Shown piece by piece: positions 2,067 to 23,701 of a stretch of DNA of 43,054 bases (the stretch's first letter is position 1; each line of letters opens with the position of its first letter). The position numbers and the translations under genes are program-made. The DNA comes from a bacterium (GTDB taxonomy: Bacteria > UBA10199 > JAIBAG01): NCBI GenBank assembly GCA_019695305.1, contig JAIBAG010000020.1, forward strand, positions 1 through 43,054, read 5' to 3'. The notes beneath the pieces are model-generated. The model worked only from the letters and a program-made list of their open reading frames with translations, made no database searches and was not told the DNA's origin.

Positions 2067-2720
2067 ATGACACTTATTAACGATAAAAAACTTTCCGCAC
2101 TCTACGGAGACACTCAAACCAACCCCACCTGCCATTTGCTGGATGAAAAAGAATTTAACAATTCTATCGTAGGGTTTTTAGAAAAAGGACTTAAAGAAGG
2201 TTACAGCAAAACCTATGTGGCCGGTGAAATCTTGAACCTCATTAATAATTATCCCGAATATGCCGAGGCAGCCTCTCTGCCCACCACTTATGAGGGTGTG
2301 ATGCAACAATTAATACAACCTCTCTATCCCAAATACCAAAACCCGGTTTATCAATGTATCCGCCCCCTCGCCATCCCCTGGCTTGACCAACAGGGTAAAA
2401 AAACAGGTAGCGAATTGGAAGAAAACCCTCTTTATCATCAATACAGCTGCATTAATCCCAAAGAAAAATACAGCCAACTTATTTGTTTGGGCCTTACCAC
2501 CAACTCTAAAAATCACGTTGCAGGCAACGGTGTAGGGCAACTTGAAACCTATAGTGTGGATGAATGTACTTTTGTTGCCGATGATCGATGTATTTCCGAT
2601 TGCATTGAAGAAGAATGGCTAAAAGAAAAACCAGATTACACACTCGTTGGCTTAGGAACTAATTGCCAAGAATACGACAACAACATTCACGAGGTGTGTC
2701 ATGACAGATGCAAAGAATAA
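2067..2720 (+). CDS. Hypothetical cysteine-rich protein, 217 residues
   Basis: No family is recognised. The protein has about ten cysteines, concentrated in the second half (QCIRP, SCIN, ICLG, ECTF, RCIS, DCIE, NCQE, VCHDRC). The C-terminal motif VGLGTNCQEYDNNIHEVCHDRC loosely resembles the NCQ/H pattern of papain-like folds, but catalytic residues cannot be assigned. There is no clear signal peptide, so the cysteines might bind metal rather than form disulfides. An AAGGAG site 5 bases before the ATG and a preceding hairpin support the start. Its 3' end overlaps the next gene by 20 bases, which implies coupling to a membrane protein. Confidence 0.6.
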   Translation: MTLINDKKLSALYGDTQTNPTCHLLDEKEFNNSIVGFLEKGLKEGYSKTYVAGEILNLINNYPEYAEAASLPTTYEGVMQQLIQPLYPKYQNPVYQCIRPLAIPWLDQQGKKTGSELEENPLYHQYSCINPKEKYSQLICLGLTTNSKNHVAGNGVGQLETYSVDECTFVADDRCISDCIEEEWLKEKPDYTLVGLGTNCQEYDNNIHEVCHDRCKE

Positions 2721-8980: not shown

Positions 8981-8990
8981 ATAAAAGAAT

Positions 8991-9105
8991 CTGGCAACGA
9001 CCTACTCTACCAGCTATGACGATAACTAGTACCATCGGCCCAAGGGAGCTTAACTGCCGAGTTCGGAATGGGATCGGGTGTGACCTCCCTGGTAAAGTCA
9101 CCAGA
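8991..9105 (-). rRNA. rrf: 5S ribosomal RNA
   Basis: About 115 bases. On the minus strand it contains the universal 5S core CCGAUCCCAUUCCGAACUCG and complementary ends. It is the last gene of the rRNA operon, just before the terminator. End positions are accurate to a few bases. Confidence 0.95.
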
Positions 9106-9164
9106 AAATTGTGAGACTCATTGTAATTTTCATCACAACGGTCAAAATTTTAAAGAGCCATCTA

Positions 9165-9186
9165 CGCTCTCAGACAATTGCATATT
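9165..9186 (-). other. 23S processing stem, 3' arm
   Basis: The sequence CGCTCTCAGACAATTGCATATT pairs in pre-rRNA with 12378-12399 (20 of 22 positions). It flanks the 23S gene and forms the expected RNase III processing stalk. Confidence 0.7.
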
Positions 9187-9274
9187 ATAACCATTAAAAA
9201 TCTTTTACGAAAAAGCACAACTTCGTTGAGACGCCCCTCGGGTTTACCCCGGAGGCATCTCAATATAAAAAAAA

Positions 9275-12283
<3,009 letters not shown>

Positions 12284-12570
12284 CAAAGCTCTTGAGTTTT
12301 TCCTTATCAATTAAATGATACAGAAAAGTCTCAACGAAATTGTTTTTTCGTTAAATGAATAAATAATGATCGTAAAAAATATGCAATTGTCAAAGAGCGG
12401 TACTACTTAAACGACTTCCGAAGAAGTCGTCATTTAAAGCTACGATAATTCGTAGCTTTAAATGAAGAAAAGTGAGAGCGTTTTGTGGCACTTTTTACTT
12501 CGTAAAAAGTACTCACATTTTCTAAATTTTTAGAGCTGCCTTACAGGTAGCTCTAAAAACCAAGAAAATG
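12284..12570 (-). other. Spacer between tRNA-Ala and 23S
   Basis: About 290 bases with no gene. Several perfect hairpins are visible: GACTTC-cga-GAAGTC, AAAGCTACGA-taa-TTCGTAGCTTT, and TAGAGCT...AGCTCTA inside a larger stem next to the tRNA. On the minus strand the RNA also contains GCUCUUUGACAAUUG (12384-12398), a boxA-type antitermination element that doubles as the 23S processing arm. Confidence 0.6.
12378..12399 (-). other. 23S processing stem, 5' arm, with boxA-like element
   Basis: Complementary to 9165-9186 at 20 of 22 positions, bracketing the 23S gene. The RNA GCUCUUUGAC matches the boxA-type signal seen in rRNA spacers and bound by NusB/NusE. Confidence 0.65.
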
Positions 12571-12643
12571 TGGAGCCAGGCGGGATCGAACCGCCGACCC
12601 TCTGCTTGCAAAGCAGACGCTCTCCCAGCTGAGCTATGGCCCC
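12571..12643 (-). tRNA. tRNA-Ala (TGC)
   Basis: A 73-base cloverleaf read on the minus strand. The acceptor stem is GGGGCCA/TGGCTCC with the diagnostic G3-U70 pair of alanine tRNAs. The anticodon loop is TTTGCAA, giving TGC. The T-loop is GGTTCGATCC. No CCA is encoded. It sits in the 16S-23S spacer. Confidence 0.97.
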
Positions 12644-12770
12644 AATTGTTCTGTTGCCGCATCCAGCTTTTAGCTAGAGGCCAACAAATTTTTTGTGCAC
12701 TTTAAAAAGTACAACAAAAATCTGGTCGCCTATGCCGGCACTTCGTGCCGCCCTATGCTCCCGATTTTTG

Positions 12771-12844
<74 letters not shown>

Positions 12845-13161
12845 TTGTTGAGCACCGACGAACTAGGTTCGACGGGGCGATTACAAGGGCTAGTCCCAAA
12901 AACTAGGTTTTTGGGGCAAGCCCATGATACCAAGCAAACCTCGATCAGTTTAAAACCGGAAGAGACAAGCCCATAAGACTTATAGCCCTTGATACTTCAA
13001 CTTATAAAAGAACGATTTCTCGGTCTCCCAAAACTAAATAGCAAGTTAAGAAAATGTTTGCAGATGATTGATCTTTATAAGGATAAGTAGATAACCTCTG
13101 AAATTTGGCGTGACCGAAGTCACGTTACTTTTTCTGTTAAATACTCCATCCTTTTCCTTAG
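12845..13161 (-). other. Spacer between 16S and tRNA-Ile
   Basis: About 317 bases with no gene. It contains the 3' arm of the 16S processing stem (13030-13067) next to 16S. Nothing else in it resembles a gene. Confidence 0.6.
13030..13067 (-). other. 16S processing stem, 3' arm
   Basis: AAAACTAAATAGCAAG (13030-13045) and TTGCAGATGA (13058-13067) are exact complements of two blocks in the leader upstream of 16S (14838-14853 and 14816-14825). Together they form a two-part stalk around pre-16S RNA for RNase III. Confidence 0.75.
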
Positions 13162-14687
<1,526 letters not shown>

Positions 14688-19580: not shown

Positions 19581-20330
19581 CTATTCTAAGCTCACGGCAT
19601 AACCGGTAATTGGATCGATAAATTCTTCTTCACAAACAGATAAATCGGGGTGGTTATTTTCTACTGGTATTTCTTCTTGAGCAGAAGCGGAAGAAGATGG
19701 AGTTAAACCTACAGCAACAGCAACACCCGCAGCCAATTTAACACTTTCTTCAACAGCCCTAGCCGCTGCAGTTGCAGCTGCAGGAACTGTAGCAGCTAGC
19801 GCCCCGTCATCTGCAGTGCCTACACCGGCAGCATCATCAGCAAGTAAAATAAGACTAGCTGCAGAAGCAACTACAGCCACACCCAGCAAACCCAAGACTT
19901 GCAGAGTAGCTGCCGAATTCTCGTATTCGTCAGGTTTTGGATCAACTGTCAGATCTTCATTAGCAGGAGTAGCTACATCTGAAGGACTTGCTTGCTCAAT
20001 TGCACTATATACCGTTTTATTTGAAGAATTACTTGGGGGAGGACAGTTATTATATTCGCTTAACCAAATACGAAAAAGACCATCTAACTCAGCAGCAATT
20101 TCTGAACTAAATCCTTGAACAGGATTGGGGCCTTCAACAAATAAAACAGGATTCGTCTCCCAGGCCTTTGCAATTAATCGTGTATTAACTTGAGCTGCTT
20201 CATAAAAATTCTGCATTGCCGGCTCACTCAAAAAACTTTCTGCAGTTTTTTCAAAGTCAGACCCATCACTTTTAGGACATACTTCTTCGTAAATTTTCTT
20301 AAAATTTACATTTACATTAATTCCACCCAT
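19581..20330 (-). CDS. Hypothetical Ala-rich membrane protein, first gene of the lipid operon
   Basis: A 249-residue protein of no recognised family. The soluble helical N-terminal domain (1-95) contains KKIYEEVCPKSDG and ends in WLSEYNNCPPPSNSS. A disordered acidic linker (105-140) follows. A membrane helix TLQVLGLLGVAVVASAASLI lies at 142-161, then a low-complexity Ala-rich stretch (164-212), and then an acidic tail with IDPITGYAVSLE. GAGGT precedes the ATG by 7 bases. It lies 33 bases downstream of a 14-base palindrome shared with the ImmA-XRE operon. Its role is unknown; it could be a scaffold or sensor for the lipid pathway. Confidence 0.6.
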   Translation of the reverse strand: MGGINVNVNFKKIYEEVCPKSDGSDFEKTAESFLSEPAMQNFYEAAQVNTRLIAKAWETNPVLFVEGPNPVQGFSSEIAAELDGLFRIWLSEYNNCPPPSNSSNKTVYSAIEQASPSDVATPANEDLTVDPKPDEYENSAATLQVLGLLGVAVVASAASLILLADDAAGVGTADDGALAATVPAAATAAARAVEESVKLAAGVAVAVGLTPSSSASAQEEIPVENNHPDLSVCEEEFIDPITGYAVSLE

Positions 20331-20438: not shown

Positions 20439-20876
20439 TTAACGCAACACCTGACGAATGCTTAAAAGCAAAAAAAGATAATCTTCCTTACGCTTTACAT
20501 CGCCACGCAAGCGCATAGAGGCCAATTGCTTAATATCTTCGTCGGTAATGCGATTACGCTCTCTCAAATCGCTGTCCCTCATCAAAGCTTCCAATGCGGG
20601 AGGCATTTTTTGAGCTACTCGCCCCTCTTCTTCATCAAAATCCACAATCTCGCTTACATCGGGATTGGCTAAAAAATAAAGTTTGTCGGTAGAAACAGAT
20701 AAAATCTTTGAGATTTTTTTAATCATCTCGTTAGTAGGCTTGCGTTGACCTTTTTCGAGATAGGTTACAAAATTTTGAGATACATCCAGCTTTTGAGCTA
20801 ACTGCATTTGTGTTAAATCAGCTCTAAGCCTTTGATCGCGCAAAAAATCACCAAATTTTATGAGTGCGTTATTCAT
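20439..20876 (-). CDS. XRE-family HTH repressor
   Basis: A 145-residue regulator. The Cro/CI-type HTH spans about residues 8-65: FGDFLRDQRLRADLTQMQLA, then the recognition helix VSQNFVTYLEKGQRKPTNEMIKKI. The C-terminal half is acidic then basic and helical (IVDFDEEEGRVAQKM, RLRGDVKRKEDYLFLL), and may carry dimerisation and a protease-sensitive site. Its ATG shares a base with the stop of the ImmA-like gene (TAATG). Such pairs typically work as a repressor cleaved or inactivated by its metalloprotease. Palindromic candidate operators flank the locus (20363 and 21584). Confidence 0.88.
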   Translation of the reverse strand: MNNALIKFGDFLRDQRLRADLTQMQLAQKLDVSQNFVTYLEKGQRKPTNEMIKKISKILSVSTDKLYFLANPDVSEIVDFDEEEGRVAQKMPPALEALMRDSDLRERNRITDEDIKQLASMRLRGDVKRKEDYLFLLLSIRQVLR

Positions 20877-21568
20877 TAAACAGCTAGCTCCTTATAAAGA
20901 AAAATTCTTAATCTTAAAAAATGAACGATAAGCGCCATATTTAAAAAGACGGCACGCGAAAAAAAGAAGTTTTGAGCAACATCCGGATAATGTTTTTTTA
21001 GATGACGGATCGCTTTAATAAGAGCCGCCAAACTAAACACAGGCTTTTTTGAAAAAATAGCCTCAAAATCTTTTACAGGGTAAGTACCCACTGCAATAAG
21101 AGCATCGGCAAACATTTCTTCTTTATCTTGTAAGGATTCCTTAAAAACAGGCACACGGTTTTTAACGGTTAAGCTAGATTCATGAGGTGCATATTGCTGA
21201 TAATACTCGCACACCCCAACATGGGAGAGCTCGTGTGCTAAAGTAGATAATTTAAAAACGGGATGAAGCTGATTATTAATAAGGATAGTACCATTCCCCT
21301 GTGGCAGATATGCGCCCATTACATTATCTGTCATGGGAATTTCTTTAACCGCAACCCCCACATTTTCTTCGGTTTGTTTTTTTAGGCCATCGTAATTTTG
21401 AAAATAGCCGGTGTTAAAAAATGGAAAGTACTTTTTGGCAACCTTGTTAAGAGTACCGAACCATTCGGCACGAACACGCGGGCGATCAAACACATTGTGC
21501 AATGTTGCCCAGTAATTGCTACTGCACATCCAGGTTAAAAGTTTTATTTCGTCAATCAATTGCAGCAT
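20876..21568 (-). CDS. ImmA/IrrE-family zinc metallopeptidase
   Basis: A 230-residue protein with a HExxH zinc motif in LSTLAHELSHVGVCEYY (H112, E113, H116). A downstream glutamate in DKEEMFADALIAVGTYP (about E150-151) fits the third metal ligand of ImmA/IrrE (DUF955) peptidases, which inactivate a partner XRE repressor. An unusual hydrophobic C-terminus (AVFLNMALIVHFLRLRIFLY) could associate with membranes. No good ribosome site is visible at this ATG, so the start is tentative. It is transcribed first, then the XRE gene. Confidence 0.82.
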   Translation of the reverse strand: MLQLIDEIKLLTWMCSSNYWATLHNVFDRPRVRAEWFGTLNKVAKKYFPFFNTGYFQNYDGLKKQTEENVGVAVKEIPMTDNVMGAYLPQGNGTILINNQLHPVFKLSTLAHELSHVGVCEYYQQYAPHESSLTVKNRVPVFKESLQDKEEMFADALIAVGTYPVKDFEAIFSKKPVFSLAALIKAIRHLKKHYPDVAQNFFFSRAVFLNMALIVHFLRLRIFLYKELAV

Positions 21569-21713: not shown

Positions 21714-22106
21714 CTAAAGACCGCATTCAGGTACCTGCTCCCATGCCAAACAAACTCCATAACTTCCAATTTTAGAACACTGTGTTTTTACAAAACACCC
21801 GCTACCTTTGTCGTATTCACAGCTGTTTTGCGCCATACACGTCCCGTACTTACTAAATGAAGCACAATCGGCCACGCATGCTAAACCATACACCGAATAC
21901 GTGGTATTATAGGCCATGCAGGTATTATATTTACTCCATTTAGCACATTGTCTGGTTTCTAAGGGCTTATAGATAGGGCGATACACATAAGGCGTATGCA
22001 AGGGGCTGTGTTTAAAACCTATCAAGCGCTTAGGCGATATACTCCACCCCGCAACCGACAGGCCGCACAGCAAACAAACCAAAAATACGATACTAATTTT
22101 TTTCAT
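21714..22106 (-). CDS. Secreted ten-cysteine protein, paralogue 3
   Basis: A 130-residue exported protein of unknown family and the third copy in a tandem array. The signal peptide is KKISIVFLVCLLCGLSVAGWS, with possible cleavage near residue 20. The mature region has ten cysteines spaced 8-13-3-8-5-7-5-8-8, identical to the two upstream paralogues, although most other residues differ (QCAKWSKYNTCMAYNTTYSVYG). The ATG at 22106 is chosen because the signal peptide starts there. It lies inside the 3' end of the previous gene (14-base overlap), suggesting coupled translation. Five disulfides are likely in the periplasm or outside the cell. Confidence 0.7.
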   Translation of the reverse strand: MKKISIVFLVCLLCGLSVAGWSISPKRLIGFKHSPLHTPYVYRPIYKPLETRQCAKWSKYNTCMAYNTTYSVYGLACVADCASFSKYGTCMAQNSCEYDKGSGCFVKTQCSKIGSYGVCLAWEQVPECGL

Positions 22107-22425
22107 TTTTTTGACCACACAGGGCATGCTCTTCCCAATCATCACAGTTGTGAAAAGAATCAATTTTGTTGCATTTCTTTTTTATAAAGCAACCGCTCTC
22201 TTCATCGTACTTACACTCATTGCGCAATTGACATTTATCCCAGCTATCAAATTCAATACAATTGGCTCGGCATTCTATACCCCGCACAGAATAAATGTAA
22301 TTGTACTCCAAACATCGTCCAAAAGAATTTTTACGAATACATTTTTTGGTAGTAACAGGGGCAGGCTTAGCTAGCACCACTGGTGACAAAACAAACAAAA
22401 CAAGAAACAAAGAAAATATTTTCAT
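22093..22425 (-). CDS. Secreted ten-cysteine protein, paralogue 2
   Basis: A 110-residue exported protein. The signal peptide is MKIFSLFLVLFVLSPVVLA, with cleavage after LA near residue 19. The mature domain of about 90 residues has ten cysteines with the same 8-13-3-8-5-7-5-8-8 spacing as its neighbours. Conserved non-cysteine positions include EYNYIYSVRG, KYDEESGCF and DDWEEHALCG. It is the shortest copy and nearly defines the minimal domain. AAAGGG precedes the ATG. The family is not recognised. Confidence 0.72.
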   Translation of the reverse strand: MKIFSLFLVLFVLSPVVLAKPAPVTTKKCIRKNSFGRCLEYNYIYSVRGIECRANCIEFDSWDKCQLRNECKYDEESGCFIKKKCNKIDSFHNCDDWEEHALCGQKNEKN

Positions 22426-22463
22426 AAATGCCCTTTATAAAAAAATTAGTTTATTCTAAAAAA

Positions 22464-22856
22464 CTATGTCCCGCAAACAGCTTCATCCTCCCACTTATCG
22501 CAGTCGTCAAAGTTGTTAATATCAATGCAGGTTCTTTTTAAAAAACAGCCGCTATTTTCATCATATTTGCATTGGTTACGCAATTTACATTTATCAAAAG
22601 AATTAAACACTAAACACTGGGCCTCACACTGAGCTCCCGCTACCGAATACGTATAATCGTATTCTTTACATCTATCAAAAGAACCCTCTCGCACACATTC
22701 GCCCGTAACCAACGGTTTTGGTTTTTCGGGTTTATAATAAACCGTTACCTCCTCCTTTGGGATATAGGCAACAGGGTACGGATAATAATAGACAGATTTA
22801 GCCCACAAAGAAGTTGAACTTAAAAAGAATAGTAAAAAAGAAAAAAATATCTTCAT
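22464..22856 (-). CDS. Secreted ten-cysteine protein, paralogue 1
   Basis: A 130-residue exported protein and the first copy in the array. The signal peptide is MKIFFSFLLFFLSSTSLWA. A Tyr/Pro-rich linker (SVYYYPYPVAYIPKEE, then VYYKPEKPKP) precedes the ten-cysteine domain, which has spacing 8-13-3-8-5-7-5-8-8. The motif C-x4-SF-D-x-C recurs within the domain (CVREGSFDRC, CLVFNSFDKC, CIDINNFDDC), hinting at a three-fold internal repeat. An in-frame TTG start 21 bases earlier, near AAGGGGG, is an alternative. The family is not recognised. Confidence 0.7.
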   Translation of the reverse strand: MKIFFSFLLFFLSSTSLWAKSVYYYPYPVAYIPKEEVTVYYKPEKPKPLVTGECVREGSFDRCKEYDYTYSVAGAQCEAQCLVFNSFDKCKLRNQCKYDENSGCFLKRTCIDINNFDDCDKWEDEAVCGT

Positions 22857-22984: not shown

Positions 22985-23701
22985 ATGGGCAATTCATTTA
23001 CACTGGGGACTGTGTACGTTTACCCTAATGGAGTAATTTACGAAATTCATTCAGGACTCCATATTAATCGCGTTTATGACGCGCATGGCGACGGGACAAT
23101 AGACAAAATAGTTCCTTTTTACTCGCTACCCGAAAACGCCACTGCCGAAGCCTGCAGCCACTATCTCACTTTTCTTAGCGACCTATATCGCTACACCCGC
23201 ACCATCATCGATCATTATCACCCCGAGCAACAATGGCATGTTTATTGGCAACGCATAAGCACTGCTTTTAAAGAAATGGTCGTTTCAAGATCCTCTCCTT
23301 TAAGCCACAACATATGGATATATACTGACGACAATCAATGGAAATATTCTAATACAGCCGATACCATCAGCACGTTTAGAACCCCAAACGGCACCTATGG
23401 TGATCGTGGCCTTTACATCAATAGAGTAAACAATACCTCGCTTTTAAGTGCGTGGACTTTAGCCAATGGCTATATATTAGGGGATTTAAATTACGACCTT
23501 GTTATTGCCATCAGCCCAGCCGAACAGGAATATTTGGGAACTGACCTTATAGCTAACTATGTTAGCGAAGGCGATATGAATCGCCTCCAGCAAAATATGG
23601 ACCAGGCCGCGTATTTAAGAGGAACAAATTGGTTTACATCTGTAGACACATTATTGAAAACTTATCATCCATCCGAATTTTTTGAGGACACTGGACACTA
23701 A
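22985..23701 (+). CDS. Hypothetical protein with internal repeat, 238 residues
   Basis: No family is recognised and there is no signal peptide. Two segments repeat the pattern PNG...GL[HY]INRV: YPNGVIYEIHSGLHINRVYD at about 13-32, and TPNGTYGDRGLYINRVNN near the middle. Right after the first copy, DAHGDGTID resembles a calcium-binding loop, but the usual twelfth acidic residue is missing. An AAGGAG lies 33 bases before the ATG, too far to serve it; an in-frame stop at 22976 rules out a longer form. It lies divergent from the cysteine-rich trio. The function is unknown. Confidence 0.6.
   Translation: MGNSFTLGTVYVYPNGVIYEIHSGLHINRVYDAHGDGTIDKIVPFYSLPENATAEACSHYLTFLSDLYRYTRTIIDHYHPEQQWHVYWQRISTAFKEMVVSRSSPLSHNIWIYTDDNQWKYSNTADTISTFRTPNGTYGDRGLYINRVNNTSLLSAWTLANGYILGDLNYDLVIAISPAEQEYLGTDLIANYVSEGDMNRLQQNMDQAAYLRGTNWFTSVDTLLKTYHPSEFFEDTGH

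Follow-up and report, generated by a model that had tools for sequence, protein, structure and literature searches.

A tandem trio of genes for predicted exported proteins with a ten-cysteine domain, and its homologues in purple sulfur bacteria

Gene layout and surroundings

The window, that is the whole stretch of 43,054 nucleotides that was analysed, contains three consecutive minus-strand open reading frames, P1, P2 and P3, which together fill positions 21714-22856 (Table 1). The mature form of each product has ten cysteines, and in all three the intervals between them are exactly 8-13-3-8-5-7-5-8-8, so that the tandem arrangement and the spacing given in an earlier note made from the DNA letters are borne out. 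P1 and P2 are 54% identical over the whole protein and 56% over the ten-cysteine domain, while P3 is the most diverged of the three (35% identity to P1, 35-40% to the other copies). Because of these identities the common spacing is to be read as homology and not as coincidence. The low identity elsewhere that the note had described therefore holds for P3 but not for P1 against P2.

A hydrophobic N-terminal signal sequence followed by a plausible signal peptidase I site was read by eye in each of the three proteins, and no lipobox was seen in any of them. P1, P2 and P3 are best taken as paralogues which are probably exported, in agreement with their first description as secreted proteins. The start of P3 overlaps P2 by 14 bp and only 38 bp separate P1 from P2, which suggests that the three genes are transcribed together, and the region showed no terminator-like site.

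Table 1. Features of the window with their coordinates
Feature	Position	Strand	Description
P1	22464..22856	-	130 aa; signal peptide ending near residue 19, linker rich in Tyr and Pro, ten-cysteine domain at about residues 53-130; profile match 223.8 bits
P1 ten-cysteine domain as aligned	22467..22703	-	
P2	22093..22425	-	110 aa; signal peptide and ten-cysteine domain, linker nearly absent; supported by ORF, cysteine spacing and profile match
P2 ten-cysteine domain as aligned	22114..22347	-	
P3	21714..22106	-	130 aa; signal peptide with two extra cysteines, linker, ten-cysteine domain; profile match 200.4 bits
P3 ten-cysteine domain as aligned	21717..21956	-	
Gene upstream of the trio, divergent	22985-23701	+	238-aa protein, no Pfam match
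Genes directly downstream of the trio	20439-21568	-	HTH_3 regulator, and protein with a sub-threshold IrrE/M78 peptidase-like domain
Gene	19581-20330	-	249-aa protein, no Pfam match
rRNA operon, complete	8989-14686	-	16S-tRNA-Ile-tRNA-Ala-23S-5S
Gene	2067-2720	+	217-aa protein, no Pfam match

The HTH regulator and the gene with the sub-threshold IrrE-like domain look like a regulator-peptidase or toxin-antitoxin-like pair, and a desaturase and an MMPL transporter are encoded farther out. The Chromatiales copies described below have unrelated genes next to them, which, judged by eye, we take to be those for an ABC transporter/sulfotransferase, for thioesterases and a transporter, for a multihaem protein and PEP carboxykinase, and for an anaerobic ribonucleotide reductase. 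Among the loci read in the genome of the window and in Chromatiales, no neighbour gene is conserved between distant members.

Homologues, conserved residues and selection

A profile made from the three sequences recovered only P1, P2 and P3 from their own genome, with no further copies, and gave no match in the other 45 genomes examined of the host phylum (46 genomes in all, from a single class). Genome contigs were also scanned at the DNA level for the pattern C-x8-C-x5-C-x2-D-x3-G-C-x5-C and the hits were then screened with the profile. This pattern gave at least 120 matches; among those listed, at least three are true members, belonging to Thiorhodococcus mannitoliphagus, Thiocystis minor and the Chromatiaceae MAG PL23b_bin.34. 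Of 210 Chromatiales genomes searched, six (these three and three more) were positive with a single copy each. They are purple sulfur bacteria, of a phylum different from that of the host, and an even draw of 398 genomes from their phylum gave no additional members.

Four of the Chromatiales homologues score 75-82 bits against the three-copy profile, whereas the best of 2000 cysteine-preserving shuffles reaches 27.8 bits, so more than the cysteines accounts for the similarity. Outside the cysteines the identity between the window and the Chromatiales copies is 27-37%. The Chromatiales members have the same spacing from the second cysteine onward, their first interval being 7 as against 8 in the window trio, and an N-terminal signal sequence is present in those that were read. 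In the alignment of nine members the ten cysteines are invariant together with Y, G, N, D, S-G, F, K and W-E, and the non-cysteine signature of the nine domains can be written N-x-C-x-[YW]-D-x2-S-G-C-F-x-K plus W-E. These conserved residues, with ten mature cysteines at 7/8-13-3-8-5-7-5-8-8, are found in the trio and the Chromatiales members alike. They define a small and hitherto undescribed family of proteins whose signature is precise and occurs both in purple sulfur bacteria and in a phylum distant from them. The tree of the nine domains is poorly resolved and does not separate transfer from loss.

An automatic homologue search started from the three copies returned nothing from genome or viral contigs, and neither did a search of the viral contigs with the nine-member alignment; plasmid and phage records gave no match. 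DNA patterns based on the cysteine spacing only produced more than 120 rows in viral contigs, the translations shown being mostly low-complexity TGY repeats or interrupted by stops, and a profile screen of the first set of these rows found no member. A weak match in an AT-rich genome of 1.1 Mb (E 5e-5) was rejected, as it contains stop codons.

Each protein contains three copies of an internal repeat unit, C-x8-C, for which a looser motif is C-x5-[FWYL]-x2-C. The likeness was compared with a null in which positions are permuted within the units, with a single permutation for all proteins so that their relatedness is kept. The three units of the window trio are alike beyond this null (p ~5e-5), and so are units 2 and 3 of the Chromatiales homologues (p ~5e-5). 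The internal three-unit repeat is therefore real. The three-fold repetition proposed before is right in this respect, but the literal unit C-x4-[SN]F-D-x-C occurs three times only in P1, P2 and P3 having C-x5-[aromatic]-x2-C.

The family is under purifying selection in close orthologues. For two pairs from Chromatiales dN and dS are 0.028 and 0.72 (L222/L324) and 0.033 and 0.28 (L249/L325), which corresponds to dN/dS of about 0.04-0.12. Between P1 and P2 dN is 0.34 and the synonymous sites are saturated. The low ratios of the orthologue pairs leave the suggestion that these proteins are under diversification unsupported, although the three copies of the one genome could have passed through episodic diversification after duplication.

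Comparison with known families and folds

No accepted match came from any of the family libraries or structure sets that were searched, in line with the note, in which no family was recognised. With Pfam, NCBIfam and PHROGs there were zero matches above cut-off for the trio and for the Chromatiales members scanned, and PDB sequences gave nothing significant. A match of P2 to PepSY_2 (PF13670) lies below the cut-off (21.8 against 24.3 bits), overlaps the signal peptide and is absent from five other whole proteins, and matches to KASH and zf-CCCH, likewise below cut-off, were not reproduced. The ten-cysteine family is a rare and uncharacterised one, matched by no database searched.

An AF2 model based on three sequences is all beta, with a pLDDT of about 87 for the domain of P1, and one based on six sequences is also all beta and less confident (mean pLDDT 74). 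Foldseek searches of the models against PDB and viral structures found nothing at E < 0.2, so that the all-beta model has no counterpart in these fold libraries. Structure prediction, which had been proposed earlier, thus gave a class of fold, and the disulfide pairing was unreadable from its output. Both the fold and the pairing are unproved, since the models are shallow, the deeper one is the less confident and no known fold was matched.

Proposed role and alternatives

With middling confidence we propose that the ten-cysteine domain is an exported, disulfide-stapled repeat of beta hairpins which serves outside the cytoplasm in binding or as a structural part, with no catalytic activity of its own. 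The signal peptides would direct P1, P2 and P3 out of the cytoplasm by Sec export, after which an extracytoplasmic oxidase of the DsbA or VKOR type could close up to five disulfides. The C-x8-C units would then form short beta hairpins that follow one another in a meander, held together by these bonds, and the folded domain would act in the periplasm or at the cell surface. Triplication of the gene in this genome may have given related modules for different partners, the copies differing in the N-terminal linker and in surface residues. A single copy suffices in Chromatiales, which counts against this proposal. Catalytic or inhibitory roles for the domain are also conceivable.

Inhibitors and bacteriocin-like proteins are typically small, carry an export signal, are rich in cysteine and come in tandem copies. 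As the trio has all four of these traits and the family is patchily distributed, the proteins might be secreted competition factors, either small antibacterials or inhibitors of a secreted hydrolase. Nevertheless no immunity-like gene and no secretion or export locus was seen beside the loci read in their own genome and in Chromatiales, let alone a conserved one, selection is purifying and not diversifying, and the match to an antimicrobial-peptide family is not significant (E 0.84), so we consider this role unlikely.

TraN is the adhesin that stabilises mating pairs in F-type conjugation. It has been described as a protein of the outer membrane that has 22 conserved cysteines and is predicted to form intramolecular disulfides (PMC9246713). 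Like the ten-cysteine proteins it is exported and rich in cysteine, and the hairpin C-x8-C-x2-[YW]-x5-C is present in TraN, for example in F TraN and in a Chromatiales TraN, so the family could be a stand-alone relative of the TraN cysteine-rich region acting as a surface adhesin module. NCBIfam TraN models match two whole proteins of the family weakly (E 0.0011 and 0.019), and in local profile-profile comparison with TraN the score is 20.6, the maximum of 150 cysteine-preserving shuffles being 20.3. In global mode, however, 30 of the 150 shuffles score as high, and hhalign aligns a single hairpin of 26 columns with a probability of 12.6%. Moreover the best TraN match reaches 17.9 bits against the 416 required by NF009015, which places the family outside TraN, and PF06986 gave no match among the members scanned. 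TraN proteins differ further in their length of about 600-1000 aa, in their conjugation neighbours and in their spacing outside the hairpin (PF06986, NF009012/NF009015). No tra genes were recognised beside the family members read, whose neighbourhoods are not conjugative and do not form an F-type cluster, and the genome of the window has no TraN match. TraN occurs in five of the six family-positive Chromatiales genomes as against 34 of 204 overall, a co-occurrence confounded by kinship. The resemblance, confined as it is to one hairpin, may serve as a lead only, and the reading as a stand-alone relative of TraN with an adhesin role seems very unlikely. In the five genomes that carry both, the ten-cysteine and TraN-like genes lie on different contigs.

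If the hairpin link were true, it would show the assembly of cysteine-rich conjugation adhesins from a small secreted unit; if not, the family would be another uncharacterised disulfide-rich envelope protein. A wider conjecture, which we think distinctly unlikely, is that the domain represents a novel fold of disulfide repeats outside the cytoplasm, in which C-x8-C beta hairpins form a chain that arose by internal duplication, has its hairpin in common with TraN, was passed between distant phyla and works as a general surface-recognition module.

That the proteins are enzymes or carriers of a cofactor (metal, haem or Fe-S) with the cysteines as ligands, as their number and the invariant D, W-E, Y and K might suggest, is highly improbable, given the export signal, the thiol oxidases in the genome, the lack of any enzyme-family match above cut-off in the Pfam and NCBIfam scans, and the nine domains, none of which has the CxxC or CxxCH motif, so that they do not group with cytochrome c, zinc-ribbon or Fe-S proteins. 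With no CxxC in the domains and DsbA-like oxidases encoded, the cysteines more probably form disulfides than bind metal or haem. The genome encodes DsbA-fold proteins, three of which have CxxC, and two of these three, from separate contigs, apparently have a membrane domain, presumably VKOR-like as judged by eye, fused to the DsbA-fold domain. The presence of these genes means that a route for oxidative folding exists in the genome.
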